Virus record (IMG/VR): IMGVR_UViG_3300033144_004328
Span: 1-52,545 of that record
Length of the DNA stretch: 52,545 bases
DNA from: a virus
Reading direction: 5' to 3' (one strand)
The notes below the pieces were generated by a model. It was not told where the DNA came from and made no database searches. It saw nothing but the letters and a program-made list of their open reading frames with translations. Shown piece after piece: positions 1,179 through 44,541 of the stretch (the stretch's first letter is position 1; the number at the start of each line of letters is the position of its first letter). Made by a program: the position numbers and the translations under genes.

Positions 1179-2072
1179 ATGCTCCACGTCACAAACCTCA
1201 AGGTCTTCAGTGTCGAGCTTGATCACCTCGACATGTCGTGGGAGATCGAGAACACGACCGAAGACCCCTGGGACTACACCTTCACCATGGAGCGGAGTGA
1301 GTCAGCCCTTGGCCCATGGGACACGGTAAGCCCTGCGTTCACAGACAAGTACCTGTTCCGCGACGTGGACGTGAATCTCCTCCACAGGTGGCGGAAGTTC
1401 TTCTATAGGATCAAGGTCACGGCAAAGTCCGACTCCTCGACTTGGGACTCGGAGCCAGCGGCCTTGGGGGCGAAGCCAGACCTCATCGCCCTAGAGGTTC
1501 GACGGCAAGAGCTGGTCCTCATGAGAGAGTACATCGGCAGGAGGTGCTGGATCTTCCCGCGCCGCACCTTCGGTCAGAGGTGTACGTGCTACGACCCCGT
1601 GTCCGGACACAGCATCGGGTCTCAGTGCCTGGACTGCTTCGACACCACCTACGTCCGAGGGTACTTGGACCCCATCGAGATGTACGTGCAGTTTGACCCG
1701 TCGTCCAAGCACACCCAGCAGCTACAGATCGGTGAGACTCAGCAAGACAACACCACGGCCCGTCTCATTGACTTCCCACCCTTGAAGCCCAAAGATATAA
1801 TCGTGGAGGCAGAGAACCGAAGGTGGCGCGTGGCGCAGGTCAATACCACAGAGAGGTTGAGGGCGACCTTGCACCAGGAGATCGTGGTTCATGCGGTCCC
1901 GCTGTCGGACATCGAGTTCAAGCTCCCTATCCACATCGCCGACCTCGAGGCGATGCAGCCATCTCCGGAGCGGGCGTTCACGAACCCGCACAACCTCGAG
2001 GGGCACAAGGACGAAGAGTTCTTTGAGGCTGCTGTGGCTGTGTACGGGTACCGCGGAAGGTCAGGACATTGA
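1179..2072 (+). CDS. Virion neck-type structural protein with Cys cluster
   Basis: This is a 297-residue protein. Residues 1-95 look like a beta-sandwich (fibronectin-III-like; Trp, Tyr and alternating hydrophobics). Residues 120-165 hold a CxC...CxxC cluster (C135, C137, C150, C153) followed by a Gly-Tyr-x-x-Pro turn, an arrangement seen in neck or connector proteins of large phages. The rest is mixed alpha/beta. Its place a few genes ahead of the tail sheath fits a head-tail joining role. The ATG follows the previous stop by three bases with only a distant purine stretch, so translation may be coupled. The start is reasonable but not strongly marked; function is by analogy. Confidence 0.7.
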   Translation: MLHVTNLKVFSVELDHLDMSWEIENTTEDPWDYTFTMERSESALGPWDTVSPAFTDKYLFRDVDVNLLHRWRKFFYRIKVTAKSDSSTWDSEPAALGAKPDLIALEVRRQELVLMREYIGRRCWIFPRRTFGQRCTCYDPVSGHSIGSQCLDCFDTTYVRGYLDPIEMYVQFDPSSKHTQQLQIGETQQDNTTARLIDFPPLKPKDIIVEAENRRWRVAQVNTTERLRATLHQEIVVHAVPLSDIEFKLPIHIADLEAMQPSPERAFTNPHNLEGHKDEEFFEAAVAVYGYRGRSGH

Positions 2073-3226
2073 TCAGTACTGACCATATGGATGGCATGGG
2101 CATCGAGCTCATGAAGATCGCCATAGACGAGAAGTCGAAGCGTCGCATGGCGTCCGCTGCCATCACAGGTGGTGCAGTGGCTGGGAGCGGTGCCCTTGGC
2201 GCGGCGCTCACAGACGCGGCTCGGTACGCGCTGGTGCGAAAGGGCATCATCGACAAGCCCAAGGCTCTCAAGATCGGCAGGCTCGCAGGCGGGGCAGCTA
2301 TCGCCTTGCCTCTCAGCCTGGCCACCATGGGCACCGGCTACTTGATGCGGGAGCAACAGGCCAAGCAGCGAGAGAAGATCGAAGCTGCCATGGCGGGCAA
2401 GAAGAAGACAGCATCGGAGACGTTCTGGACTCCCGACCTGCCAAAGGCCGCCCCCGTAACGAGGTCCGACATCTCTAAGTGGGAAGGTCGAATGCGGAAG
2501 GAGCAGCCCCGCGGGCATGGAGCTGGCGGGGCCATCCTTGGCGGAGCAGGTGGACTGATTGGTAGCGCCTTCAGCCGCGAGATGCTGAAGAGGGCTCCGG
2601 GCAAGGCCGGTAAGGTTCTGCCCATCGTCCTACCTGTGGCGGGTGCCGCGGTCGGTGCGGGGCTAGGCTACCGAAAGGGGAAGCGAGTCGCAGAAAAGCA
2701 GATCAAGGGCATGACGCCTGGGAAGTTCCAACTCAGTGCAGATCTTCGGGCGTCTAAAAGGGCTCTTGAAGAGGGCAAGATCGACCAAGCCAAGTTTGAC
2801 AAGGCTTTCCTGAGCTACCTTGACGAGAGGAATCGGCTGGGTCAGGAGGCTTCTAAGCAGAAGACGGCTCTTGCCGCAGCCGCCGTCGGCCGCACACTGG
2901 GTAAGGCCACTGGGCTCACCGGCAAGACACTAAAGGGTGGTGTTGGTGGCGCAGCATTTGGTGGCGCATTGGGTGGCGGCATCGGCGCCGCTACTGCTGG
3001 TGAGGGCAAGAGGCTCGAGGGCCTTACTCGTGGAGCTTTGCTTGGCGCAGCCGCTGGTGGCTTGGGTGGAGCAGTTGGTGCCCACGGCAAGGGCGTAAAG
3101 GGCGCTAAGATCTTCGCTTACGGGGCGCCGGCTACTGGAGCGGCTGGCGGCTTGAGCTCAAGGTTCGGGATGGAGATACCCCGTCGACGGCCTCAGCCCC
3201 AGCAGTACTATAGGGGCAGGGCGTGA
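2069..3226 (+). CDS. Gly-zipper membrane-type virion protein
   Basis: This is a 385-residue protein. I chose a TTG start overlapping the upstream TGA because GGAAGG lies 8 bases ahead; an ATG at 2087 is the alternative. It has repeated Gly/Ala-rich segments with small-xxx-small spacing, near residues 28-50, 70-95, 145-165, 185-205 and 270-345. They could form several short membrane hairpins or an amyloid-like assembly. A KKKTASETF stretch near residue 110 recalls the KTAS of the gene at 1. The C-terminus is Arg/Pro/Gln-rich. It lies between two virion genes and overlaps the next by four bases. An ejected pore-forming or internal head protein is possible but unproven. Confidence 0.72.
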   Translation: MISTDHMDGMGIELMKIAIDEKSKRRMASAAITGGAVAGSGALGAALTDAARYALVRKGIIDKPKALKIGRLAGGAAIALPLSLATMGTGYLMREQQAKQREKIEAAMAGKKKTASETFWTPDLPKAAPVTRSDISKWEGRMRKEQPRGHGAGGAILGGAGGLIGSAFSREMLKRAPGKAGKVLPIVLPVAGAAVGAGLGYRKGKRVAEKQIKGMTPGKFQLSADLRASKRALEEGKIDQAKFDKAFLSYLDERNRLGQEASKQKTALAAAAVGRTLGKATGLTGKTLKGGVGGAAFGGALGGGIGAATAGEGKRLEGLTRGALLGAAAGGLGGAVGAHGKGVKGAKIFAYGAPATGAAGGLSSRFGMEIPRRRPQPQQYYRGRA

Positions 3227-4068
3227 CATCATCTACGGTACAGGTTCGTGCTCCGCTGTTGGGCAGCGACTCGTTCTCGTCGTGGGGTGAGAACCCGCTG
3301 TTCCATGTCACGAGACTGTGCCTGGCTTTTGTGCAGGGCCTGTTCAGCTACGCAGACACTGGGGCCTTCCATTGGGAGGAAGCCCACGAGGACACCGAGA
3401 TCATTATTCAGGATGAGCAGCCAATCCACACCGACGTCGTCGGGAAGAGGCCTGCCATCATCACAGTGCGTAGTCCTGTGGCGTGGGCTGGTATCGCTCT
3501 GGACCAACTCCAGGACTACGACTTCAAGACCGGTGCCCGAACACATACCGACATGCTCTCTGGCAACATGACCTTCAACTGCATGAGCAGGGTCAAGGTA
3601 GAGGCAGAGCTCGTGGCGTGGTTGGTGGCTAGGCACTGTTGGATTCTTCGCAGGATCATGCTGCGGTCTGGCTTTCATGACTTCGGTCAGCGAAACCAGA
3701 TTCTCGCAGCCTCCCCGCCCGGTAGCATCATTACCGGAGCGCAAGAAGCAGAGATCATCAACGTGCCTGTCGTTGTACCGTTCCACTTCCAATGGCAGGA
3801 CCAGATCGAAACCAGGAACCAGGACGTAGTATCCGCTATCGAGAGTAGGATCTGCGCCCTTGGTCCGCAGGAATTTCGCCCAACGCCAGTTGCAGAGGGC
3901 GGCAGCCCTGGTCCCGGCATCAGAGGCACGGGACTGGGAGCCAGGGTCAGCGGTCTACGGAATCTACGGCATCCTTCGATTAGTGGTCGCGTGCTGACGC
4001 TCACTACTCGTACGTTGCCTAATTCCCAACAGCCCGCTGATCCGGTTTGTCAGATCGTAACAACGTAG
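3223..4068 (+). CDS. Virion structural protein upstream of the sheath
   Basis: This is a 281-residue protein with a GTG start overlapping the upstream TGA and a purine-rich AGGGGCAGGGC before it. It looks globular, with alternating hydrophobic strands and few charges, and the C-terminal 60 residues are Gly/Pro/Arg-rich and likely flexible. In contractile phages the slot directly before the sheath is usually a neck, head-completion or tail-terminator protein, so that role is likely. No signature motif was recognised. A gap of ten bases with a strong GGAGG separates it from the sheath gene. Confidence 0.68.
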   Translation: MTSSTVQVRAPLLGSDSFSSWGENPLFHVTRLCLAFVQGLFSYADTGAFHWEEAHEDTEIIIQDEQPIHTDVVGKRPAIITVRSPVAWAGIALDQLQDYDFKTGARTHTDMLSGNMTFNCMSRVKVEAELVAWLVARHCWILRRIMLRSGFHDFGQRNQILAASPPGSIITGAQEAEIINVPVVVPFHFQWQDQIETRNQDVVSAIESRICALGPQEFRPTPVAEGGSPGPGIRGTGLGARVSGLRNLRHPSISGRVLTLTTRTLPNSQQPADPVCQIVTT

Positions 4069-4078
4069 GAGGAATGTC

Positions 4079-7000
4079 ATGGCAGCAGCCGCAGAGCTTC
4101 CGCAGCCCGGAGTAGAGGTCATTCAGCAGCTTCGGACCGTCACGCCAGTGATCGTGGCGCCGACGCTGGCACCTTGCATCATGGGTGTGTGCAAGCAGAT
4201 CCTCGAGGTCCTGGAGGATGATGGGACGGTGAACGCCGATGCCCTGGCCACGGGTCCGGCCGTCGCAACGGCGCCCAACGCCCAGGCCTCGTACGACATC
4301 GACACCGAGACCCTCATCGTCTCCATCGGGGGCGGGCCCAATCAGACCTTCACGTTCTCCGGAAGCGACCCCCTGACGGCGACGGTTGCGGCTGCGAACA
4401 TCAACGCGGCCGCCATCGCTCCCGTGGGGTTCGCGGCCTACGCCTACAACGATGGGTCGAACAACTACCTCCAGCTCCGGACCACGACGTCTGGATCCGG
4501 CGCATCCATCAAGATCATTGGCGGCACGGCGCTGGTCGACCTCGGGTGGGACTCGAACGTCGGGTACACGTACTTCGGCATCGGGACCTACACGAACCGG
4601 AACGAGTTCATCCCGCAAACGTCGCTGCCCGACCCCCGCGGCATCATGGACGAGATCGACGTCGAGGAGGCAACGATTCGGTGCTTCGTGGACGTCGGCT
4701 CCGAGGTTCGTGAGTTCCTCGACACAGAATCCTTCCTTCGGAACGGAACCACGGTCATCACCGTGGACGATGCTGATGGGGACGCAACGACCCCGCTGTT
4801 CCTGCTCGAGTCCGGTGGCGAGAACTTGCTCGGTGCAGCGACTGCCGCTGTCCACACCGGCAACGTTGACCTCACGGTCGCGAAGGCCATCCATGGTCAG
4901 ACCTTGATCATGGGCATTGATGGTGGCGCGAAGCAGACCCTCACCCTCGTGGGTCAGCCTATCGTGTCGATCATCTCCACGACGCCTTGGGACTATGTCG
5001 CCGATCTTCAGAGCAAGGACATCGTCTTCACGGTCAACGGCACCACGGTGACCTGCACGTTCTCAGCTGGGGTGGCCGACATCGATGGGGTAGTCTCTGA
5101 GATCAACGCTGCGGCTGTTGCAGTGCTCGGGGCCGGCACCATCATCGCCTATCGCTGTGACGAGTTCGGTGACGTCAACGCGGCGGGCGACTACATGGGT
5201 ATGTTCTATGGCGGGGCTCCGCCGACCATCGTCGCTAACACCTCAATCATCGTCGAGGACTCGGCTGGGGGCTCCACCGCCGCTACCGTCACGGACCTGT
5301 TCGGCTCCGACACCCACTTCTACCAGAACAACACTGGTGACAAGGCCGACCCGAGTCAGCCCATCGACGACATCGAGGCGCAGATCGACACTCTTTGGGG
5401 CGGCAACGTCGCAGCCATCGACGGGTCGGACTTCCTCGTCCTGACATCGGCCACGGTCGGAGTGGAGTCCAAGATCGACATCGACTCTAACTCTACGTCA
5501 CTGACCAACCTCGGTCTCACGGCAGCCGTCTACAACGGAGTCGCCTTCCCGATCCGAAGTGGGGACGCTTTCTACGCTGATGGCAGCTACATCGGCGACG
5601 TCCTCGAGGTCCATCCCGGTGCGGTCATGGGCCGTATTAGGGTGAGCAGTGAGGTCGCAATCACGTCGACGTACTCGACCTGGTACATCATCTCCAAGAA
5701 CCTCAACACTCTGGATCGAGCCACGGAGTGGGGCATCATCGCTCCCACCGCCGACTTCTGGGTTGACACCCAGGGCGACATCCGTGTGAAGCATGACATC
5801 CTCAGGGACACGGCGGGCGATCCTGTCGCTACGGCGACGGTGAACATGTACTTCGCCTATACCGCCCTCAGGCTGGACGTGAGCCCGGACGCTGAGGAGC
5901 CGGCGCTCCTGGCCTTCGACGACGTCGACGACCTCGACGACGCTCTGGGCCCGCTGACCCCGGCCAACCCCCTGGGGTACGGCCTGAGCCTGGCGCTGCA
6001 GAATGCTGGCGCTGTGCGGGTCTATGGTATCGGTGTCGGCGATGACGCTGCGGACATGCCCTACGGCACCGTCACTGCCTGGCAGGAGGCCTACGACTTC
6101 TTGGAGGCTCAGGGAGTCTATGCTCTGGCCCCCATGACCGATGACTTGGAGTCTGTCCTTCTGGGCCGGACCCATGTTCTCGCCATGTCTCAGCCTGAGG
6201 AAAAGGGCGAGCGCATCCTGATCTGCTACCTGGGTCGGCCAGCTCGGAAGGCGGACACCATCGTGGGTTCTGGGACTGACGGCGACAAGCTGTCGGCCAC
6301 CACCTTCGATACCAAGATCTCGAACCTGTCCCAGCTCCTGCTGGCAGCGGGTGTCGACCCCGGCAGCATCGCAGTGGGCGACGACGTGTTCCTCGACATC
6401 GCCACGGACTCGAAGAACTACAACGTCACGGGTATCAACGGCTCCGTGGTCACGATCAACACCACCTTCACCAGCGTCCAGAACACGGATGGCTTCTACT
6501 CGCTGGCGGACCTCACGACCCTCACCCTCATCTCCGAGACCTTCTCCGTGAAGGTGCGAGGCGCCGCAATCGCCTCAACCTCTGCGGGCAAGAGCGACGA
6601 GATCACCACCATCATCGCGCGCGGTAGCTCCTTCGGGAGCCGGCGCGTGTGGATGCAGCAGCTCGACCAGGCTCGGGCCACTGTGGAGAGTGTCGACTCG
6701 CTGATTCCTGGCTTCTTCGTCTGCGCCGCCAAGGCAGGCATGGTAGCTGGCAACCCGCCGTCGATGCCCTTCACCAACTTCCCGATGACGGGCTTCACTG
6801 GCTTCACGGGGAGCCACGAGATCTACACCACGCGCCAGCTCAACCAAGGTGCGGGTGGCGGGGCGGACTGGGTCGTCCAGACTGCAGAGGGAGTTCCCCT
6901 GGTGTCTCGGCACCAGGTCACCACGGACCTGACCTCGGTGGAGACCACGGAGCAGTCCATCACGAAGGCTTTGGACTACGTGTCCATCTTCATGAGGATC

Positions 7001-7228
7001 GGCCTCCGGAACTTCATCGGCAGGTACAACATCACGGACACCTTCCTGGATACCCTGGCCAGTGTCGTGCAGGGTCAGCTCCAGTGGCTGATGGATCACA
7101 AGATCATCGCCCAGGGAGAGGTCAACAACATCATCCAGGACGCCGACAATCCGACTCGGGTTCTGATCGACTGCACCGTGCAGCCGTACTACCCGTGCAA
7201 CTATATCCGCCTGACGCTCGTGGTCTGA
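4079..7228 (+). CDS. Contractile tail sheath protein with large insertions
   Basis: This is a 1049-residue protein with an ideal AGGAGGAAT site. The N-terminus has the sheath signature: a PGVEV segment followed by TPVIVAPTLAPCIMG. Residues 595-660 (the DDVDDLDDALGPL region, then GLSLALQNAG and a strand) and the C-terminal 150 residues (SVETTEQSITKALDYVS through the closing beta strands) are also sheath-like, the latter being the part that wraps the tube. Between about 60 and 500 lie inserted beta domains of a repeated type: an NG/GG strand pair, an alpha helix with INAAA, then LVLTS-like strands ending at LGL. This resembles the flagellin-hook IN motif. Typical sheaths are 450-700 residues. 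The contractile tail assignment is firm; the identity of the inserts is an inference. Confidence 0.9.
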   Translation: MAAAAELPQPGVEVIQQLRTVTPVIVAPTLAPCIMGVCKQILEVLEDDGTVNADALATGPAVATAPNAQASYDIDTETLIVSIGGGPNQTFTFSGSDPLTATVAAANINAAAIAPVGFAAYAYNDGSNNYLQLRTTTSGSGASIKIIGGTALVDLGWDSNVGYTYFGIGTYTNRNEFIPQTSLPDPRGIMDEIDVEEATIRCFVDVGSEVREFLDTESFLRNGTTVITVDDADGDATTPLFLLESGGENLLGAATAAVHTGNVDLTVAKAIHGQTLIMGIDGGAKQTLTLVGQPIVSIISTTPWDYVADLQSKDIVFTVNGTTVTCTFSAGVADIDGVVSEINAAAVAVLGAGTIIAYRCDEFGDVNAAGDYMGMFYGGAPPTIVANTSIIVEDSAGGSTAATVTDLFGSDTHFYQNNTGDKADPSQPIDDIEAQIDTLWGGNVAAIDGSDFLVLTSATVGVESKIDIDSNSTSLTNLGLTAAVYNGVAFPIRSGDAFYADGSYIGDVLEVHPGAVMGRIRVSSEVAITSTYSTWYIISKNLNTLDRATEWGIIAPTADFWVDTQGDIRVKHDILRDTAGDPVATATVNMYFAYTALRLDVSPDAEEPALLAFDDVDDLDDALGPLTPANPLGYGLSLALQNAGAVRVYGIGVGDDAADMPYGTVTAWQEAYDFLEAQGVYALAPMTDDLESVLLGRTHVLAMSQPEEKGERILICYLGRPARKADTIVGSGTDGDKLSATTFDTKISNLSQLLLAAGVDPGSIAVGDDVFLDIATDSKNYNVTGINGSVVTINTTFTSVQNTDGFYSLADLTTLTLISETFSVKVRGAAIASTSAGKSDEITTIIARGSSFGSRRVWMQQLDQARATVESVDSLIPGFFVCAAKAGMVAGNPPSMPFTNFPMTGFTGFTGSHEIYTTRQLNQGAGGGADWVVQTAEGVPLVSRHQVTTDLTSVETTEQSITKALDYVSIFMRIGLRNFIGRYNITDTFLDTLASVVQGQLQWLMDHKIIAQGEVNNIIQDADNPTRVLIDCTVQPYYPCNYIRLTLVV

Positions 7229-7277
7229 GAGGACAGGGGAACGTGGCGTACTGTAGAATCAACTCGAGGAGGACCTG

Positions 7278-7982
7278 ATGGGCACCTTCGGAACGTGGAA
7301 CCCCTACACCTCTCACGTGCAGGGCGGAATGGCAGACGGCAGGTTCGTCAGTGGTGGGCTCACCCTCATCGCTGCCGGACCTCCGCGTCTCGGCGAGCTC
7401 GGCGGGGCATCGGCCCTAGCTGGACAGCTCAGCTCTGGGGAGAGCGACATCGTCTACCCCATCGCTGCGCTGCAGAACGTCAACATGTCCCAGAACAAGA
7501 CCTTCATGAGGGTCTGGGAGCTGGGATCAGAACGCAGCTACTTCATCGGTGCTCGGACCGTGGGACAGCTCGCCCTTTCGAGGGTGTACTATCACGGTCC
7601 GTCGCTGCTCCGGTGCCTGTACTCGTACTACCAGGACGAGATCGGGCCGGTTCAGGTGCCGTGGGTGTTCCCGAACCCAGGTGCCGCCGCCGTGGCCAAC
7701 CCCCACGACGTGCAGATTCCACCGGGGTACGAGAACCTGTTCTTGAACCTGGCCTCGGACATGTTCAACCAGCCCATCGGCCTGATGATGTACCTCAGGG
7801 ACTCGAACCTCGACACCATCGGGGCGATCTACCTGGAGTCCGTCGTCATCCCGAACCACACCTGGGCGACCGATGCTCAGGGCACCATCGTGCAGGAGAC
7901 CGCCGCCATGCAGTACGAGCGGGTCGTGCCGGTGGCCGTGACGTCGCTGGCTCTAGTGTCTGGGCTCGAGGTAGCGGCATAG
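7278..7982 (+). CDS. Tail tube-like virion protein
   Basis: This is a 234-residue protein with a strong CGAGGAGGACC site 49 bases after the sheath stop. Position directly behind the sheath, size, and beta-rich composition with conserved-looking Tyr/Trp/Asn clusters fit the inner tail tube of a myovirus. A central stretch (MSQNKTFMRVWELGSERSY, near residue 75) begins the likely core. No hydrophobic membrane segment is present. An alternative is another tail structural protein such as a tube initiator. The assignment rests mainly on gene order. Confidence 0.72.
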   Translation: MGTFGTWNPYTSHVQGGMADGRFVSGGLTLIAAGPPRLGELGGASALAGQLSSGESDIVYPIAALQNVNMSQNKTFMRVWELGSERSYFIGARTVGQLALSRVYYHGPSLLRCLYSYYQDEIGPVQVPWVFPNPGAAAVANPHDVQIPPGYENLFLNLASDMFNQPIGLMMYLRDSNLDTIGAIYLESVVIPNHTWATDAQGTIVQETAAMQYERVVPVAVTSLALVSGLEVAA

Positions 7983-10304: not shown

Positions 10305-10339
10305 ACCCCTGGGCCTTACGGGTCCAGGGGTATTCTTTT
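10305..10339 (+). terminator. Second plus-strand terminator
   Basis: ACCCCTGG pairs with CCAGGGGT around a short loop, followed by ATTCTTTT. It backs up the terminator 70 bases upstream and protects the convergent minus-strand block from read-through. Confidence 0.75.
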
Positions 10340-10344
10340 GCATA

Positions 10345-10382
10345 GCTAAGCAAAGGGCCCCAGGATAATCATCCCGGGGCCC
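10345..10382 (-). terminator. Minus-strand terminator
   Basis: GGGCCCC (10355-10361) pairs with GGGGCCC (10376-10382) and continues inward with GGAT/ATCC. On the minus strand it is followed by TTTGCTT. It faces the plus-strand terminators, as expected between converging transcription units. Confidence 0.6.
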
Positions 10383-13971: not shown

Positions 13972-14433
13972 ATGACTAAGCAAGGCGTGAAGTTCTGTCC
14001 TACATGCGGTCACAACGACGAGCTCGAGAAGGTGTGGCCAAGCTCAGGAGGTGGGCATACAGAAACCTGGAAATGCAAGCACTGTGGCGAGGTCTGGCAC
14101 CACCAGAGGGCGGGAACCCGTCCTGGTGTGGGCCTCAAGGAGAAGTACACCGTCCTCAAGGGGGACGGAGAGCCCATGGAGGGGCCTAGCTTCGTCTTGG
14201 TCCTGACTGATGATGCAGCGAAGGCTGCGCTCAGGGCGTATGCCATGGCTACCCTCAACTCCGACCTGGCGTCCGACATCAGGAACATCTTGGCTGACAT
14301 GTCGAGGCACCCTGATCGGTACCCAGACGCTGGAGACGAGGGTCGGCTCAACGCTGGTGTGAAGTACCGTGCTTTTGAGCAGGGTACAGCCGGCAGTATC
14401 TTCATCATGAAGCCCGGCTTCGAGGAAGATTGA
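13972..14433 (+). CDS. Zinc-ribbon protein (153 aa)
   Basis: The N-terminus has a clear ribbon: CPTCG at about residue 9 and CKHCG at about 35, followed by WHH. Residues 75-110 form a helical domain (DDAAKAALRAYAMATLNSDL) and the tail is polar. It is the first gene of the plus-strand accessory block and shares its stop with the next gene's ATG (TGATG). A nucleic-acid-binding role is plausible from the ribbon only. Confidence 0.72.
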   Translation: MTKQGVKFCPTCGHNDELEKVWPSSGGGHTETWKCKHCGEVWHHQRAGTRPGVGLKEKYTVLKGDGEPMEGPSFVLVLTDDAAKAALRAYAMATLNSDLASDIRNILADMSRHPDRYPDAGDEGRLNAGVKYRAFEQGTAGSIFIMKPGFEED

Positions 14434-14762
14434 TGAACGTCGTCTGCCTAAACTGTGGAGTCCCGATCTACAACTGTACCATCGTTGGAGAGGTATATTC
14501 TGGGACGAAGGTAGAGGCGCACCATTTCGTACCGCTGCGTGATGACGTCCCGCAGCCTACAGACACCCAGGAGATGCGTTGTCCGTTGTGCGGCGAGTTC
14601 TTCTGCAAGATCGGCACCAATGTCAAGGGGGACGGAGCAGTCCTCCTCAAGCTCGAGGGTGGGGCGTGGTGGCCACATCCACCTGTGGAAAAGAGGGTTG
14701 ACCAACGCCCTCGATCTGTTATTCTGAACGATGAACCACGGGATCGATCCAAAGGAGAGTGA
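14433..14762 (+). CDS. Zinc-ribbon protein (109 aa)
   Basis: The ATG overlaps the previous TGA, with CGAGGAAGATTG before it. CLNCG near residue 6 and CPLCGEFFC near 50 form the ribbon; PLRDDVPQP lies between. The tail is Arg-rich and overlaps the promoter and ribosome-binding site of the H1-like gene, so the end of this gene doubles as regulatory DNA. No family was recognised. Confidence 0.65.
   Translation: MNVVCLNCGVPIYNCTIVGEVYSGTKVEAHHFVPLRDDVPQPTDTQEMRCPLCGEFFCKIGTNVKGDGAVLLKLEGGAWWPHPPVEKRVDQRPRSVILNDEPRDRSKGE
14698..14726 (+). promoter_or_regulatory. Possible promoter of the H1-like gene
   Basis: TTGACC followed after 16 bases by TATTCT resembles a sigma-70 promoter. The local GATCTGTTATTCTGAAC also loosely echoes the repeated phage motif GATCTTGGTATAAGAAC. 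Either way the H1-like gene seems to have its own start and a terminator behind it. Confidence 0.4.
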
Positions 14763-14763
14763 C

Positions 14764-15510
14764 ATGGGTACCGCAGCAGACGCGCTACGAGCGCGCAAGA
14801 AGGCTTCGGCCAAGAAGGCCGGGTCGAAGAACAACGGACAGACGTCCCCCGCAAAGGCAGCGCCGAGGAAGGCCAGGAAGGCCACCAAGAAGGCCGCTGC
14901 CAAGCCCAAGGCGAAAGCCGCTTCCAAGAAGGCGGCCAAGAAGACCACCACCAAGACCACCAAGGCGAAAGCCGCCCCCAAGAAGACGGCCCCCAAGAAG
15001 GCCGAAGTCGAGCGCACCTTCGACAGGGACCGCAACGACGGGCTCAGGCCCGTGGAGCGTCAGGTCCTCTCCATCATCGAGAAGGGTGGTGGCGAGATGA
15101 GCATCCTGAACATCGCTGCCAAGCTCTTCAAGAAGAAGGCCGTGGACATCCCTCGAGAGGGCCCTGGCTCGGTGAGGGTGGTGCGCAACGCCATCCGCAA
15201 GCCGGCGGAGTACGGCCTCCTGGACTGGAACCGCAAGGCGGGTCGGGGCATCGTGAAGCTGCTCCCCGCCTTCAAGAAGTCCGGCCTCAAGGCCGCGGAG
15301 CGCTACATGGAGAGGGCTCGCAAGGCTGGCAAGGACGATGAGGCTCCGAAGGCCCCCAAGAAGGCTAAGAAGGCCACGAAGAAGGCGGCCAAGGCTGCCC
15401 CCAAGAAGGCCGCGAAGAGCAAGAAGGCGCCGAAGAAGGGCACCAAGAAGGCCGCTCCCAAGAAGACGGCGCGGAAGAAGCCCGCCAAGAAGGCCAAGGG
15501 GAAGAAGTAG
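14764..15510 (+). CDS. Histone-H1-like DNA-condensing protein with winged-helix core
   Basis: This is a 248-residue protein with an AAAGGAGAGTGAC site. It has three parts. Residues 1-82 are a Lys/Ala/Pro tail of KKAAPKK-type repeats. Residues 90-168 read as a globular winged helix: RPVERQVLSIIEKGGGEMSI, then NIAAKLF, then VRNAIRKPAEYGLLDW and a final strand GRGIVKLLP. Residues 190-248 are a second Lys/Ala/Pro tail. This is the plan of eukaryotic histone H1; bacterial H1-like proteins usually have only the tail or a different core. It should bind and compact DNA, either the phage genome or the host nucleoid. It is transcribed as a single-gene unit. The DNA is built of repeated AAGAAGGCC-type codons. 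Confidence 0.85.
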   Translation: MGTAADALRARKKASAKKAGSKNNGQTSPAKAAPRKARKATKKAAAKPKAKAASKKAAKKTTTKTTKAKAAPKKTAPKKAEVERTFDRDRNDGLRPVERQVLSIIEKGGGEMSILNIAAKLFKKKAVDIPREGPGSVRVVRNAIRKPAEYGLLDWNRKAGRGIVKLLPAFKKSGLKAAERYMERARKAGKDDEAPKAPKKAKKATKKAAKAAPKKAAKSKKAPKKGTKKAAPKKTARKKPAKKAKGKK

Positions 15511-15525
15511 GTACCCCTCCCGGGT

Positions 15526-15566
15526 AGAGGGTCGGCTCGGTTCGTCCGGGTCGGCCCTCTTTCTTT
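15526..15566 (+). terminator. Rho-independent terminator after H1-like gene
   Basis: AGAGGG (15526-15531) pairs with CCCTCT (15555-15560), with further CG pairs inside, followed by TTCTTT. It ends ten bases before the next ATG. Confidence 0.7.
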
Positions 15567-16595: not shown

Positions 16596-17238
16596 TGTAT
16601 GTGGGGTGAGCCTACCCGACGACAACCCCGAGAGAATGCACTTCATCGGGAGCGCGGATAAGCACGCTTGTCTGGCTTGTGTTGACCAAGCCGGCCTGTC
16701 CGCACTGAAATCATTCTTCCTAGACGGATCAACTACTGGTGAAATCGGTAGTAGAGTGTGTGAGGCCGTAGGGAGAATCCGTTCCGCGGCCGCGGCCGCT
16801 AAGGTCAGCCCAGACAAGCCTGAGCCCGCTCGCAAAGCAAACAGTGTTGTGGTCGGTGACAAAACCCTAGCCACCATCGACGGCGAGGTGCTGTGGATGG
16901 ATGAGGACACCGGTTCCTGGCACCCTCTGCGGATCAATGAGGGTCTTTTGGGTAGGGTCCTCGACATGGAGAAGAGGTTCGTGGCCCAGGGCGGTGACGT
17001 CTGTAGCAGGGTCAGTGAGTTGGGTCGGCGCATCGACAATCATGATGGCTTGGAGTACAAGATCAACGGCGTAGCCACTGCGCATAAGAAGCTCGAGAAG
17101 GAGTTCAACGATGTAGCCAACCACCTAGGCGACGTCACGCGCAGAGTCGAGAGTTTGGAGCGCACCGTCAAGAAGAACAGTGACTACATCGCCATCTTGG
17201 AACTCGCAGAGGAGCTCGATGAACAAGAAACAACGTGA
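16576..17238 (+). CDS. Zinc-finger and coiled-coil protein (220 aa)
   Basis: AGGAGGCGAG precedes the ATG. The N-terminus has CDVCG and, 25 residues on, CLAC, a zinc site. An Ala-rich stretch follows, then a beta segment (KTLATIDGEVLWMDEDTG). Residues 130-215 form a coiled coil (heptads around LDMEKRF, RVSELGRRID and RRVESLERTVKK). It may form an oligomer that presents the finger domain. The tail overlaps the next gene by 20 bases. Confidence 0.65.
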   Translation: MGVRKCDVCGVSLPDDNPERMHFIGSADKHACLACVDQAGLSALKSFFLDGSTTGEIGSRVCEAVGRIRSAAAAAKVSPDKPEPARKANSVVVGDKTLATIDGEVLWMDEDTGSWHPLRINEGLLGRVLDMEKRFVAQGGDVCSRVSELGRRIDNHDGLEYKINGVATAHKKLEKEFNDVANHLGDVTRRVESLERTVKKNSDYIAILELAEELDEQETT

Positions 17239-17611
17239 GCAGGTAGGCGATCTGCTGAACAAGGCCATGGAACGATTCGATGATGTCCAACTCGATTGTC
17301 AAGGGAAGCAGGAGCACGGCCGTATCGTTGTGTGGATGCAGGCGATGTGGGGTCTTTGCAGCGCGGCACGAGACATCGTGAACCATCCCCGCCCTCCCAA
17401 GATGACGCAGCGGCAAGTCATCCTTATGGCCGACGCCTTTGCTTACCTACTCGATGCCAAGGCGCATATTCCTGGGAGTGACGTTGTCAAGGACTATGAT
17501 CTTTCTGCCTTTTTGATCAGGGCTTGGACCGTACACCTGCCCTTCCTCGACAAGTTCCGCGGCATCGGCCACCCTTCCGACGTAGTAAAGAGGGGACTGA
17601 GGATCGAATGA
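17219..17611 (+). CDS. Paralogue A flanking the SLOG gene (130 aa)
   Basis: This helical protein starts MNKKQREQV. It shares with the gene at 18168 the start, the HPRPPK..R.QV.LMA segment near residues 60-75, a YL.DA stretch, and the ending W..HLPFLD.FRG.GHP. The two are clear duplicates that sandwich the SLOG gene. GAGGAGCTCG is the ribosome-binding site. No known family was recognised. The context suggests a partner or regulator of the SLOG protein, an inference from gene order. Confidence 0.7.
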   Translation: MNKKQREQVGDLLNKAMERFDDVQLDCQGKQEHGRIVVWMQAMWGLCSAARDIVNHPRPPKMTQRQVILMADAFAYLLDAKAHIPGSDVVKDYDLSAFLIRAWTVHLPFLDKFRGIGHPSDVVKRGLRIE

Positions 17612-18171
17612 GTTATGATCCAGGAGTACACAGGTCGGAGCTGATCATTTGGAGTGGTGGTCAAACCGGTGTCGACCGGGGAGCGTTGGCTGCTGCTCTG
17701 AATGAGCCATATGGCCTCGTTCGTGCTGGTGGGTACTGTCCCAACTCGTGCAAGGCCGAAGACGGCATCATCCCTAGGACGTATCGCAGGGTCCTCAAGC
17801 CGCTGGAGTCGGACAACTACGTCGTCCGTACCGAGAAGAATGCCTTGGAGTCAGATGGCACCGTGGTCCTTATCACGGACACAGCGCAGCTCTATGGCGG
17901 TACTGCAACGACTCTGAAGTACCTCAGAACAGCAAAGCGACCGCACCTGATCCTCCATTGTGAGACCGATATGGAATTCGACTGTGGCACGGAGGTCGAG
18001 CTCCTCAAGAAGTGGGTGGAGTACGTCAGGGCCAAGAAGTTCTTCTACGCGGATGGTGTGTTCACGGACCTGAAGATCAACTTCGCCGGGCCTCGAGAGT
18101 CAAAGGCGCCCGGCATCGAGGAACTGACCCAAGAAGTCCTTGGGTTCTGGCTGGAGGACTTGAGCGCATGA
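17608..18171 (+). CDS. SLOG-superfamily protein (putative molybdenum-carrier type)
   Basis: This is a 187-residue protein. Residues 11-29 carry the phosphate-binding start IIWSGGQTGVDRGALAAA, typical of the family annotated as putative molybdenum cofactor carrier in the SLOG/Rossmann superfamily. Further marks are GYCPNSC near 43, then VLITDTAQLYGGTATTLKY (strand, loop and second Gly-rich turn) and PHLILHC. SLOG proteins bind nucleotides or nucleotide-derived ligands; some sense defence signals. The phage role is unknown. It overlaps its neighbours by four bases on both sides, within a tight operon. Confidence 0.78.
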   Translation: MSYDPGVHRSELIIWSGGQTGVDRGALAAALNEPYGLVRAGGYCPNSCKAEDGIIPRTYRRVLKPLESDNYVVRTEKNALESDGTVVLITDTAQLYGGTATTLKYLRTAKRPHLILHCETDMEFDCGTEVELLKKWVEYVRAKKFFYADGVFTDLKINFAGPRESKAPGIEELTQEVLGFWLEDLSA

Positions 18172-18566
18172 ACAAGAAGCAGAGACAGAAGGTATACGAT
18201 CTTGTCGAGGCGGCTAGGGCACGCTTCATCGAAGTTGGGGATCTGAACAGCGGCTATGGCGCCATGAACTCCCGCCGTGTTGAGGAGTGGATGCGTATGA
18301 TGGAGGAGGCCTGTGTCGTCATCAATGACGCCGTCAGCCACCCTCGGCCCCCAAAGTTCAGCAGGGTACAGGTTGCTTTGATGGCTTCGGGCTTCATGTA
18401 CCTATTCGACGCCCGAAATACCATCAATCGCCATGTGCCGATCAAGGATGCGGCCGTCTCTGACTACATCCTGCGGGTGTGGGGGCTCCACCTTCCCTTC
18501 TTGGATCGATTCAGGGGCAGGGGGCATCCCGATGAAGCGGAGAAGCTGAGGTTGGGCATCACATGA
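18168..18566 (+). CDS. Paralogue B flanking the SLOG gene (132 aa)
   Basis: It starts MNKKQRQKVYDL and aligns by eye over its length with the gene at 17219 (VSHPRPPKFSRVQVALMA near 58-75, WGLHLPFLDRFRGRGHP at the end). The N-terminal thirds differ more. The duplicate pair on either side of one gene suggests duplication followed by insertion, or a three-gene module kept together. Confidence 0.7.
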   Translation: MNKKQRQKVYDLVEAARARFIEVGDLNSGYGAMNSRRVEEWMRMMEEACVVINDAVSHPRPPKFSRVQVALMASGFMYLFDARNTINRHVPIKDAAVSDYILRVWGLHLPFLDRFRGRGHPDEAEKLRLGIT

Positions 18567-23084: not shown

Positions 23085-23434
23085 TCAAGAAGGAAGCCGA
23101 CAAGATCGGTAGGCTCATGGCCAAGCAGTTGGGTCAGGCATGGACCATTACCAAGACCAAGCATGGTCGTGGGGACTGGGAAGTCAGTGCCAAGGCGATC
23201 ATCAGCACAGGACGCTGGGATGCGCACTACCACCCCGGTGGGTGTACTGGTTCCCCGGAATCCTACTACGTCACGCTTGGCCCCATTGCGAAGGGGGCCA
23301 GGATATGGACGGTAAGGCGCCCGAACCTGCGTACGGCTGTGCGTGAGCTCAAGAAGCTGGCACTGAACGAAGTCCAGACGCGAGCCAGTCTCCTCAACAT
23401 GCGTTGCTGTTTCAAGGGGGTTAGAAGATCATGA
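23081..23434 (+). CDS. Unrecognised protein, possible paralogue of 22737 (117 aa)
   Basis: It begins with a Lys-rich helix (RLMAKQLGQAWTI), then strands with GRGDWEVSAKAIIS and YYVTLGPIAKGARIW, then a helix with ELKKLALNEVQTRASLL. Length and order of elements match the gene before. No function was recognised. Confidence 0.58.
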   Translation: MIKKEADKIGRLMAKQLGQAWTITKTKHGRGDWEVSAKAIISTGRWDAHYHPGGCTGSPESYYVTLGPIAKGARIWTVRRPNLRTAVRELKKLALNEVQTRASLLNMRCCFKGVRRS

Positions 23435-24504
23435 GCAAGACACTGTGTTTCTTCCACAGCGCAGACAAAGACGGTCATTGTGCCGGTGCCATCGTCCGCA
23501 AGTACTTCGGTGATGATGTCGAGATGATCGGCTGGGACTATGGCGACCCATTCCCATGGGACAAGATCGATGTCCACACCGAGGTGTACATGGTGGACCT
23601 GAGCCTGCAGCCGTGGGAGGACATGGTCCGGCTGAACACCGAGACCAAGAAGTTCGTGTGGATCGACCACCACAAGTCAGCCATCACGGACTACAACGCC
23701 TACGTCGACCACGAGTCGAAGGAGTTCTATGGCGTATGGTCCACGGCCTTCGCTGCTTGTGAGCTGACCTGGCGATATCTGTACCCAGACTTCGAGATGC
23801 CTGAAGCCGTGAAGCTGATCGGCCGATACGACGTTTGGGAGTGGGCTGATACTATAGGCGCCCTTGAGTTCCAGGCCGGTCTAAGGGCCATGGAGACGCT
23901 GCCGACTGATGGCGTCTGGGCCCGCTTGCTCGATGCTAGCTCAGGCTTGTTGGTGCGCAACATCATCGATGATGGTGAAGCGATCATCCGCTACAAGGCG
24001 AAGCAGGATCGTATCCACATCGAGTCCGCTGGCTTCGAGCTGAACTGGGAAGGGCGTACTTGGTTGGCGATCAACGAGATGTTCAACAACTCGAAGCTGT
24101 TCGACTCGATGTTCGATGCCAATGTCTATGCGGGTATGCTGTGCTTCGGCTTCCGCAAAGGGAAGTGGTACGTGAGCCTGTACGCTCCGGACAAGAGTGA
24201 GAGTAGTCTCGACATGGGCGCACTCGCCAAGAAGTACGGAGGCGGCGGCCACCCAGGAGCAGCAGGATTCACTACTCTAGTTCTGCCCTTTCCGCTGGGG
24301 GAGGAGCCGTATTCCTCGGACAAGAAGATCATCGATGGCTCCATCGTTGCTGGTCAGCGCCGTGTCTACGAGAAGCAATACGGCAAGATGGATGAGCTGA
24401 CGCTGTTCAGGCTCAAGCGACTAGCCATAATAGTCGGGCTGAACCCGACGTGCTTGAGCGAGGAAGAGATCATCGCTGGCATCAAGGCATTGGAGGAATC
24501 ATGA
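23431..24504 (+). CDS. DHH/DHHA1-family phosphoesterase (NrnB-like)
   Basis: This is a 357-residue protein. All family marks are visible: H9-S-A-D12-K-D14-G at the N-terminus, VDLSL with D56, IDHH at 78-81, GRYD with D134, and the DHHA1 motif GGGGHPGAAGF at 270-280. DHH proteins bind two manganese ions; the NrnB branch hydrolyses short oligoribonucleotides and some cyclic-nucleotide products. Here it could finish RNA recycling or remove signalling nucleotides; which is an inference. It lies in the accessory operon and overlaps the genes on both sides by four bases. Length fits the family. Confidence 0.85.
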   Translation: MSKTLCFFHSADKDGHCAGAIVRKYFGDDVEMIGWDYGDPFPWDKIDVHTEVYMVDLSLQPWEDMVRLNTETKKFVWIDHHKSAITDYNAYVDHESKEFYGVWSTAFAACELTWRYLYPDFEMPEAVKLIGRYDVWEWADTIGALEFQAGLRAMETLPTDGVWARLLDASSGLLVRNIIDDGEAIIRYKAKQDRIHIESAGFELNWEGRTWLAINEMFNNSKLFDSMFDANVYAGMLCFGFRKGKWYVSLYAPDKSESSLDMGALAKKYGGGGHPGAAGFTTLVLPFPLGEEPYSSDKKIIDGSIVAGQRRVYEKQYGKMDELTLFRLKRLAIIVGLNPTCLSEEEIIAGIKALEES

Positions 24505-38239: not shown

Positions 38240-38254
38240 GAGGAGGTGAGGGTT

Positions 38255-40285
38255 ATGTTCAAGCAATTCAAAGAGGCAGTTGCCCGCCAGTTCGAGGTGA
38301 TGAAGGGCCATCAGCTCTTCAGGACCGACGTCGAGAAGGAATTGATGTGGCTCACGTACCTCGATAGCTTCCCCGAGGGGAGCAATCCGATGATGCGGGA
38401 GCGGACTGAGCACGACTGCCAAAGCTGCAAGTCCTTCATCCGCGCTGTGGGGAGCATGATCGCCATCATCGATGGGGAGTTGGTATCCCTGTGGGACTGT
38501 GAAGTCGACCACCCCTACGACGTAGTGGCGAAGGAGCTCAGCGAGCTTGTCAAGAGTACGTTGATCAAAAATGTGCTCTTGCATGACCAGACATCGGCAG
38601 GAGTGGACAAGAACCATCAGGACCTTGATGGGGAGGTGCTGACATGGGAGCACTTCCACATCGTCTTGCCGCAGGCCTACGTGAGCCAAGACCGAGGGGC
38701 GGTCTATGGTGAGAAGCAGTCGACGAAGGACGTCTTCGCTCGGGCCCTCAAGGAGATCAGCCTCGACGCCATTGAGACGGTGATCGAGCTCGTCGACCAG
38801 GGCTCGCTCTACCGCGGCGAGGAGCATCTCCATTCGGTGCAGGCGTTCCTCGTACTGAAGAAGTGGTACGACAAGATCGATGATGAAGAGGAGAGGGACG
38901 TCTTCGTCTGGCAGCAGGGTCAGTCGCCGGCGGTCACAAAGATCCGAAGCTCAGCCATCGGCACGTTGCTAGTCGACCTCTCAGAGGGCAAGGGCCTGGA
39001 CGCATCTGTCCGCAGCTTTGAGGCGAAGGTCGCTCCGTCGAACTACAAGAGGCCAAAGGCCCTGGTCACCAAGGCGATGATCGAGAGGGCACGTAAGTTG
39101 GTGGAGGAGTTGGGCTACGGCTCAGCCCTCGGCAGGCGGTTCGCTGTCGTGGAGGACATCACCATCAACAATGTCTTGTTCGCCAATCGGGACGCGCGGC
39201 AGGCCATGAGTGCTGACGTGTTCGACGAGCTCATCTCCAGCACTAGGGATGATCCGAAGAGCCTGGAGAAAGTCGAGAAGGTGCCCATCGAGAAGTTCGT
39301 GGAGGACATCCTCCCGAAGGTGACCTCTATCGAGCTCCTCTTCGAGAACAGGCACGCAGGGAGCCTGGTCAACCTCGTGGCGCCCATGGACCCGGAGGCC
39401 CCTTCGATCTTGAAGTGGGGCAACAACTTCACGTGGAGCTACGCCGGCGATGTCGCTGACTCCATTCGTGAGCGGGTCAAAGCTCGTGGCGGCAGCATCA
39501 CGGGGGAATTCCGGGCCTCGTTGGCTTGGTTCAACTCCGACGACCTCGATCTGCACCTAGTCGAGCCGGGTCCCCGTGGTGGGCGTAGCGGAGAGCACAT
39601 CCACTTCTCGCACAAGAGCTCGATGAGTGGGTCCATGGGTGAGCTCGACGTCGACATGAACGTCGGCACCTCGGGGCCTCAATTCTCCCGCAACGCTGTC
39701 GAGAACATCACCTACCCGCAGCGCAGCCGGATGCTCGAGGGGCCGTACCATCTCTTCGTCAACCAGTACACCCACCGGGAGCACGAGGACGCGGGGTTCG
39801 AGGTCGAGCTTGAGTTCGGCGGTGAGACGATCACCTTTGCCTACGACCGCGAGGTACGGCCCCGCCAGAACGTTACCGTGGCGAAGTTCACCTTCTCCCA
39901 CAAGGAGGGGCTGAAGATCGTCGAGTCGCTTCCCCGCCAAGACGTCTCGAAGACGCTGTGGAACCTGCCGACGCACTCGTTCCATCCAGTCACGCTGGTG
40001 ATGATGAGCCCGAACCACTGGAACGGTAGGCCTGTAGGCAACCGCCACTGGTTCTTCATGCTTCAAGGGTGTACGCGAGAAGGCAGTTCTCGGGGCTTCT
40101 TCAACGAGCAGCTCTCTGATGATCTCCGAGAGCACCGTAAAGTCTTCGAGATCCTTGGTGGGAGGATGAGGACCGCGGATGAGGGAGAGCAGCTCAGCGG
40201 CCTAGGCTTCTCCTCGACACAGCGAAACAACGTGTTCGCCAAGGTCGCGGGCGCGTTCACCAGAACCATCAACATCACGTTCTAG
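38255..40285 (+). CDS. Conserved large phage protein with C-terminal YfaP-like sandwich (676 aa)
   Basis: GGAGG lies eight bases before the ATG. Residues 50-95 hold the strongly patterned ERTEHDCQSCKSFIRAVG and a following strand-turn-strand (IIDGELVSLWDCEV), typical of a protein family widespread in phages of unknown function. Residues 100-430 are helical. Residues 440-545 resemble a YfaP/DUF2135-type beta sandwich: RASLAWFNSDDLDLHLVEP, then GELDVDMN with conserved Asp, then a strand-rich end. The remaining part is a mixed domain. It is the largest non-structural gene of the window and must matter to the phage. Confidence 0.7.
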   Translation: MFKQFKEAVARQFEVMKGHQLFRTDVEKELMWLTYLDSFPEGSNPMMRERTEHDCQSCKSFIRAVGSMIAIIDGELVSLWDCEVDHPYDVVAKELSELVKSTLIKNVLLHDQTSAGVDKNHQDLDGEVLTWEHFHIVLPQAYVSQDRGAVYGEKQSTKDVFARALKEISLDAIETVIELVDQGSLYRGEEHLHSVQAFLVLKKWYDKIDDEEERDVFVWQQGQSPAVTKIRSSAIGTLLVDLSEGKGLDASVRSFEAKVAPSNYKRPKALVTKAMIERARKLVEELGYGSALGRRFAVVEDITINNVLFANRDARQAMSADVFDELISSTRDDPKSLEKVEKVPIEKFVEDILPKVTSIELLFENRHAGSLVNLVAPMDPEAPSILKWGNNFTWSYAGDVADSIRERVKARGGSITGEFRASLAWFNSDDLDLHLVEPGPRGGRSGEHIHFSHKSSMSGSMGELDVDMNVGTSGPQFSRNAVENITYPQRSRMLEGPYHLFVNQYTHREHEDAGFEVELEFGGETITFAYDREVRPRQNVTVAKFTFSHKEGLKIVESLPRQDVSKTLWNLPTHSFHPVTLVMMSPNHWNGRPVGNRHWFFMLQGCTREGSSRGFFNEQLSDDLREHRKVFEILGGRMRTADEGEQLSGLGFSSTQRNNVFAKVAGAFTRTINITF

Positions 40286-42878: not shown

Positions 42879-43300
42879 GCCATGAAGGATGCCAAAGGTG
42901 CGGGCAGGAGAACGTTGCCAGCGCCTCAGGGAAGGTCGCGGATGCATTCATCTTGACTTGGCCCGGAGGCAAGACCCAAGAAGGCTACGTCCCGCCCAAT
43001 GGCGTCTGTGGCTTGAGGGCAGGGGACAGCCATGACTACATGGAGCTCGACTACTGCATGGCCTGTGGACAGATCCAGGGCAGTTGGCCTCTGGCCTCTG
43101 TCGTCAAGAACCTGCCGGTGCGGAAGTTCGAGTTCGCGTTGTTGTTCGGCTACGGAGAGTGGCAAACCCTGATGCCGACACAAGCCAAAACGGAGGATGA
43201 GGCTTGGGCCCGGATTCGCAGGATCGTTGAGGGCATGCCCGGTGATGGTGTCGTTGGCATTTGCTTGATGCGAGTCAGCGATGTGGAGGATGAGACATGA
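42875..43300 (+). CDS. Zinc-ribbon protein (141 aa)
   Basis: CQRCG near the N-terminus and CMACG near residue 62 make a ribbon. The second half is a strand-helix-strand (FEFALLFGYGEWQTLMPTQA; EDEAWARIRRIVEGMPG). It overlaps neighbours by four bases. Confidence 0.62.
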   Translation: MSHEGCQRCGQENVASASGKVADAFILTWPGGKTQEGYVPPNGVCGLRAGDSHDYMELDYCMACGQIQGSWPLASVVKNLPVRKFEFALLFGYGEWQTLMPTQAKTEDEAWARIRRIVEGMPGDGVVGICLMRVSDVEDET

Positions 43301-44541
43301 TCAATGGTTGGTGGGTGCTATGTCCCAAGTGCCGGCACACCTGGAAGTGGCGCATCACTGCTGATCGCTACAGGCCCGTGAAGACGAAGTGCCCAAAGTG
43401 CAGAGCCATCATTGAGGAGTTCGTCGAGATCAAGGAGGAGGACGTGAAGTCACACGAAGTCAACATCCAAGAGGTCAGGGTCGTAGCAACCGACTCCAAG
43501 AAGCTGACGTTGGTCATCCAGCTCCAGAAGACCTCAGGCTTCCTGAAGCCGTTCAGGGTCGTCGTGCCCGTGGAGGTTGTGGGCTCTGACCTCCAGGCTC
43601 ATGAGCTTGCGGAGCTCATTGGGGAGGAGGGCATCTTCCACGGCGGCCCTGCTCCCACCAACGCCCCGCCAAACACGTGCATGGTCTGCACAGAGCCCGG
43701 AACCCGCATCATCGATGACGTGCCCCTCTGCAACAAGCACTGGATCAAGCACCACCGCATGCGCTGGAAGGAGTGGCGCTGTGGCAAGTGCTCGCACAAG
43801 CAGGAGCAGGAGCTAGAGCACCGCACCCTTGATGATGCTTTGATGTGCCAGCACTGTGGCGCCGTGATGGGCTACTTCATCAACGACGAAGTCTTGATCA
43901 TGAACGAAAAGGTGCATTCGGTCAGCGATACCGACTCCTGGTTCAAGACCGCCAGGTTCCGTGTTGGGGAGCGGGTCCGACTCGATCCGAAGCGCATTGG
44001 GGCTAAGCTCATCGAGGACAAAGGTCCCGGTGTAGTTGCGGAGATCATGCCGTCATACTCCCCGACCAAGATCGGCGTCAAGTTCGACTCGGAGAAGTAC
44101 ATCGAGACCCCGGAGACGAACCTCATGCCCGAAGCCGGCTGGCCCATGGTCGAGAAGAATTGTGCCTGCGGCGAGCCTGCGGGTAAGGTCCCTGAGGACG
44201 AGGCAGCACAGTGTATGGCCTGTTGGGGTGACTCTGACAGGGTCAAGAGGTCGCGGGAGCTATGCTACGCCCCCATGACCAACGACGAGTTCTTGGATCT
44301 CGTCAACGACGTCGCTGATCGTAACAAGCTAACGGTTGGCGATGAGTTCTGCTGTCGGCTCTACGCCAAGGTGATCGGCGACCCGTCTTCGCTGATATCG
44401 ATGTCTGTCACTGAACGGAACAAGTTCGTACGGTTCGTCATGACCAGTCTGGCGTGGGTAGCATCCGACGAGGGGAAACTGAGAGTTGTGGAGATGGCGT
44501 GGTGGATGTCCACGTACAAGGAGCGGCTCAATGCCCGATAG
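43297..44541 (+). CDS. Multi-zinc-finger protein with KOW-like domain (414 aa)
   Basis: The N-terminus WVLCPKCRHTWKWR...KCPKC is a ribbon. Near 128-190 are CMVC, CNKH, CGKC and CQHCG. Residues 215-265 read FRVGERVRLDPKR...VVAEIMP...GVKFDSEKYIE, a KOW/SH3-like barrel. CACG...CMACW follows near 285. The C-terminal 110 residues are helical. Nucleic-acid or RNA-polymerase contacts are plausible from the folds; unproven. Confidence 0.62.
   Translation: MINGWWVLCPKCRHTWKWRITADRYRPVKTKCPKCRAIIEEFVEIKEEDVKSHEVNIQEVRVVATDSKKLTLVIQLQKTSGFLKPFRVVVPVEVVGSDLQAHELAELIGEEGIFHGGPAPTNAPPNTCMVCTEPGTRIIDDVPLCNKHWIKHHRMRWKEWRCGKCSHKQEQELEHRTLDDALMCQHCGAVMGYFINDEVLIMNEKVHSVSDTDSWFKTARFRVGERVRLDPKRIGAKLIEDKGPGVVAEIMPSYSPTKIGVKFDSEKYIETPETNLMPEAGWPMVEKNCACGEPAGKVPEDEAAQCMACWGDSDRVKRSRELCYAPMTNDEFLDLVNDVADRNKLTVGDEFCCRLYAKVIGDPSSLISMSVTERNKFVRFVMTSLAWVASDEGKLRVVEMAWWMSTYKERLNAR

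Follow-up and report, generated by a model that had tools for sequence, protein, structure and literature searches.

P0001, which is encoded by a large uncultured phage and in which a predicted winged-helix core is flanked by two tails rich in lysine, alanine, and proline, is on balance probably a nucleoid-associated (DNA-architectural) protein that coats, compacts, and locally silences DNA in the infected cell. The winged-helix core would dock on double-stranded DNA, and the unstructured tails would neutralize the phosphate backbone and bridge neighboring duplexes; coating, compaction, and local silencing of the infected-cell DNA would result from this docking together with the charge neutralization and duplex bridging by the tails. 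We infer the DNA binding, compaction, timing, and target (phage DNA or the host nucleoid) of P0001, and broad binding and compaction of double-stranded DNA are suggested by charge and predicted fold only. The charge of the tails, the conservation of the core in the same genomic neighborhood, and the double-stranded-DNA-binding winged-helix proteins at the top of the fold matches were counted in support of an architectural role, whereas the differing tail arrangement of the two known members was counted against it.

The window, that is, the whole stretch of DNA analyzed, spans the entire IMG/VR virus record IMGVR_UViG_3300033144_004328 (52,545 nt), which probably represents part of a larger phage genome; tRNA and Rfam scans of its full length returned no matches. 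The P0001 frame consists of 248 open codons, with an ATG start preceded by GGAGAG (Table 1). Because the low-complexity DNA encoding Lys, Ala, and Pro leaves other frames open across the same interval, independent support for the frame was needed. It was supplied by a homologue: the core is conserved in the same frame in an independent phage (39% identity over 108 columns, E=1e-20), indicating that the P0001 frame is real. P0001 is the most lysine-rich ORF of the window (25% K vs 14% for the runner-up) and carries a net charge of +64 across its 248 residues. A strong intrinsic terminator follows the gene and gives good support to a defined 3′ end, and an equivalent 14-bp hairpin (z -2.4) lies directly 3′ of the homologous gene (L003:8621-8652, see below). 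An earlier, sequence-only reading had assigned P0001 to a phage, which was borne out, and had given the gene a possible terminator and promoter of its own, so that dosage might be set independently. The terminator stood; the promoter match, at 9 of 12 positions, was one of 3 such matches in 13 kb, where shuffled sequences predict 3.6, and at this chance level it lends no support to independent dosage.

Table 1. Features of the P0001 gene and its flanks (window coordinates).
Feature	Position	Strand	Description
Gene P0001, tailed winged-helix protein	14764..15510	+	248 aa, pI 11.1, 26.5 kDa
N-terminal Lys/Ala/Pro tail, residues 1-84	14764..15015	+	net +26
Winged-helix core (predicted), residues 85-170	15016..15273	+	39% identity to L003 core; AF2 on homologue
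Helix 3, putative recognition helix, residues 137-149	15172..15210	+	VRVVRNAIRKPAE; AF2 on homologue
C-terminal helix, ~residues 175-190	15286..15333	+	conserved AERY motif
C-terminal Lys/Ala/Pro tail, residues 191-248	15334..15507	+	net +24; missing from homologue
Intrinsic terminator	15526..15560	+	15-bp stem, then TTCTTT; folding z = -3.7
Sigma-70-like promoter match	14698..14725	+	TTGACC-16-TATTCT; inside end of upstream ORF
Upstream motif GATCGATC	14742..14749		single occurrence in window; CGATCT (14712) 24 bp before

The search for homologues in other phages yielded a single, synteny-matched record, IMGVR_UViG_3300009509_000009 (L003), which encodes a 251-aa relative at L003:7839-8591 and was reached through the neighboring DHH phosphoesterase gene (window 23431-24504). 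No homologue above the cut-off was found among 50,697 phage records, 72,556 plasmids, PHROGs, Pfam, and NCBIfam, and viral and GTDB contigs scanned for patterns from the full protein and its core gave no match, these scans requiring near-exact 8-residue patterns and so reaching close relatives only. Searches by alignment and, separately, by a degenerate DNA motif encoding VRNA[IL]R.P..YG recovered the L003 protein as the sole relative; five further matches to the DNA motif lay in unrelated frames and were rejected. Sequence searches of the PDB returned noise only. A third related contig (L015) carries the structural genes, and the P0001 gene was not found on it before the contig ends.

L003 and the window are syntenic over the structural genes, a leftward block, and the DHH gene, with best-matched genes at about 46-71% identity. 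In both phages the gene sits just right of the switch from leftward to rightward transcription, as the first rightward gene in L003 and the third in the window. The relative thus shares with P0001 a homologous core, a basic N-tail, the genomic place, and a terminator directly after the gene. It differs from P0001 in that its N-terminal 40 residues are acidic (net -5), the basic N-tail that follows is longer (~104 residues, +35), and a basic C-tail is missing. Judged from these two sequences, the basic N-side tail is common to both phages and the C-tail is particular to P0001.

Residues 85-170 of P0001 are of ordinary composition. Folded alone by AF2 from the single sequence, the P0001 core gave an all-helical model of low confidence (pLDDT 58), whereas the L003 core as target, with the P0001 core as second row, was modeled at pLDDT 81 and pTM 0.72. 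The topology of the latter model is H-H-H-β-β, in which the β-hairpin forms the wing of a winged helix-turn-helix, followed by a C-terminal helix. The fold of P0001 was assigned through its 39% identity to this modeled core, and a winged helix is, in this way, supported for P0001 through its homologue. The two proteins agree best over helix 3 with its ends, where 10 of the 18 positions in 135-152 are identical, and the Arg and Asn residues of this helix are among the best conserved parts; the AERY helix is identical at 7 of 14 positions, compared with 3 of 14 for helix 2. Foldseek searches of the PDB with the L003-based model placed MarR-family proteins (MepR, MexR), BlaI, Fur/PerR/Zur, and SSV1 F-93 first, all of them weak matches (best E 0.014, TM ~0.5). 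Matches among viral folds were mostly generic helix-turn-helix proteins, and one BFVD match was labeled ribosomal protein L8.

The tails are free of aromatic residues and contain KKA, APKK, and KKAAK motifs. Lys, Ala, and Pro make up 64% of the N-tail and 83% of the C-tail, the lysine- and alanine-rich low complexity that marks proteins of the Hc1/Hc2 type. Lysine-rich tails are also found on RNA-, ribosome-, and virion-associated proteins. Since a tandem repeat of ~54 bp (14880-15004) lies within the DNA encoding the N-tail, and repeat units at 61-75% identity are common to the DNA of both tails, the tails may grow, move, or vanish through slippage or duplication. The length of Chlamydia Hc2 is also variable, through lysine-rich pentamers (PMC2848022).

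One possibility, which we regard as rather unlikely, is that P0001 is a sequence-specific phage transcription regulator, whose winged helix reads an operator, perhaps at its own promoter, and whose tails raise non-specific affinity or the speed of the search. The nearest solved folds are those of MarR/Fur/BlaI/MecI proteins, the L003 relative has a weak match (E 0.0024) to the "transcriptional regulator" family PHROG 2440, and P0001 weakly matches SgrR_N, below the cut-off (E 0.0065). The predicted core fold is thus like that of MarR/Fur/BlaI-type regulators and PHROG 2440, with negligible sequence similarity. Conservation is highest in helix 3, and the specific residues kept there could just as well reflect recognition of one particular operator. 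The window and L003 each contain a single copy of the arrangement CGATCT-N24/25-GATCGATC, located in both a short way 5′ of the gene for the tailed winged-helix protein, and this arrangement is possibly, on weak evidence, a candidate operator. However, little weight was placed on this motif because it was picked post hoc and because roughly one in three pairs of random 150-bp stretches share an 8-mer. With ~25 net charges on each of its two tails, P0001 moreover goes far beyond what is usual for regulators; those of the MarR/Fur/BlaI type are not known to carry long Lys/Ala/Pro tails.

Among the genes around P0001, those at 1179-7982 encode structural proteins of a large tailed phage; they are conserved in two IMG/VR records (the L003 and L015 contigs) and distantly like those of Salmonella phage Arash and Vibrio phages D69/D148/D181 (180-187 kb). 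In the distant relative D69, a 151-aa lysine-rich protein (21% K; L023:8738-9193) is encoded among the structural genes. Strong hairpins with U-runs face each other at 10305-10331 (+) and 10355-10382 (-), between the rightward structural and the leftward blocks, and are probable convergent terminators. Weak matches to Lar-like restriction alleviation proteins (PHROG 6422) were found at 13972-14433 and 43297-44541, the former also matching PHROG 9572. The ORFs at 17180-17611 and 18012-18566, which flank the ORF at 17524-18171, have in common the stretch MNKKQR..V.DL...A..RF and further similar stretches, and are apparent paralogues. At 38246-40285 lies a 679-aa PHROG 1735 protein of a widespread family without assigned function, with matches in 508 phage records, the best at ~48% to phiCbK-like Caulobacter phages and Serratia phages.

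That P0001 is a virion or packaging protein, with basic tails that condense the phage DNA in the head or enter the cell with it, is improbable. Structural genes similar to those for Salmonella phage Arash structural proteins do lie to its left, near a PAAR spike. However, the gene stands beyond the leftward block and to the right of the strand switch, has its own terminator, and in both phages is found beside small rightward non-structural genes (the DHH phosphoesterase and genes of unknown function), a place that makes a capsid role slightly less likely; P0001 showed no virion motif. Very improbable is an RNA- or ribosome-associated protein, in which the winged helix would bind structured RNA and the basic tails rRNA. 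Ribosomal and RNA-binding proteins can likewise have winged helices and Lys/Ala tails, and the BFVD match to L8 points the same way, but no specific RNA-binding family was matched and most fold matches are DNA-binding regulators.

The sequence-only reading had likened the order of tail, winged helix, and tail to that of the eukaryotic linker histones. H1 is tripartite, with a winged-helix center (PMC3834806). The layout was found in P0001, with both tails present and the core modeled through the homologue, and was not kept in the L003 relative, so that a tripartite plan with a basic C-tail is a property of one of the two proteins and is not conserved. The winged helix itself is a generic fold, and structure prediction upheld it without placing a linker histone in the top 50 of either fold-search list (PDB or viral). 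Like P0001, H1/H5 proteins (PF00538) have a winged-helix center flanked on either side by basic Lys/Ala/Pro tails, and their overall size is similar. P0001 differs from them in its much longer N-tail, in a predicted fold nearer the MarR/Fur types, in the lack of any sequence or profile match, and in having no nucleosome to bind. A profile of the two family members, aligned by hhalign with four H1/H5 globular domains, gave a probability of 0.2%, which carries little weight, the comparison being of low power and a MarR control scoring equally; the H5 sequence used was confirmed against PDB entries. Descent of the core from eukaryotic H1/H5 by gene transfer is scarcely credible: P0001 has the overall H1 plan, but the Linker_histone profile gave no match up to E=10 for P0001, its core, or the L003 relative, the nearest solved folds belong to MarR/Fur/BlaI-type regulators of bacteria and archaea, and the plan is missing from the sole known relative. 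Because the plan is not kept in the relative and Linker_histone, Hc1, and Hc2 are not matched, the likeness to H1 is best read as convergence, with P0001 an independently assembled analogue.

As a probable DNA-architectural protein, P0001 may be compared with prokaryotic and phage proteins of similar composition. The chlamydial Hc1/Hc2 proteins and the H1-like proteins annotated in moraphages, which were assigned to PF07432 (PMC12619734), are likewise rich in Lys and Ala, encoded by prokaryotes or phages, and expected to compact DNA. In contrast to these, P0001 has a predicted winged-helix core, and neither P0001 nor the L003 relative matched the Hc1/Hc2 profiles in Pfam (PF07432, PF07382). 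Mycobacterial MDP1/HupB resembles P0001 in joining a folded DNA-binding domain (predicted in P0001) to a long disordered Lys/Ala tail, whereas its folded domain is HU rather than a winged helix and its tail lies on the C side only. The disordered C-terminal region of MDP1 is required for DNA compaction and growth arrest (PMC5974015), and the tails of H1 act comparably (PMC3834806).

Phage H1-like proteins are thus already known, and P0001 appears, from its sequence, to be a variant with a winged-helix core and two Lys/Ala/Pro tails that falls outside the known families; no winged-helix phage H1-like protein was found in the open-access literature. Few phage-encoded H1-like families have been described, and that of P0001 lies outside PHROGs and Pfam. 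We propose, tentatively and with less than even confidence, that P0001 and its relative represent a new phage chromatin-like family, in which a bacterial-type winged helix with Lys/Ala/Pro tails reorganizes the phage or host nucleoid, a convergent linker-histone design whose tail arrangement is still shifting. If P0001 does compact DNA, the linker-histone layout would have been invented independently, in a phage, from a bacterial-type winged helix. With such a protein one could test directly whether the H1 design owes its effect to the folded core or to charge alone, and whether chromatin of the host or of the phage is remodeled by large phages.
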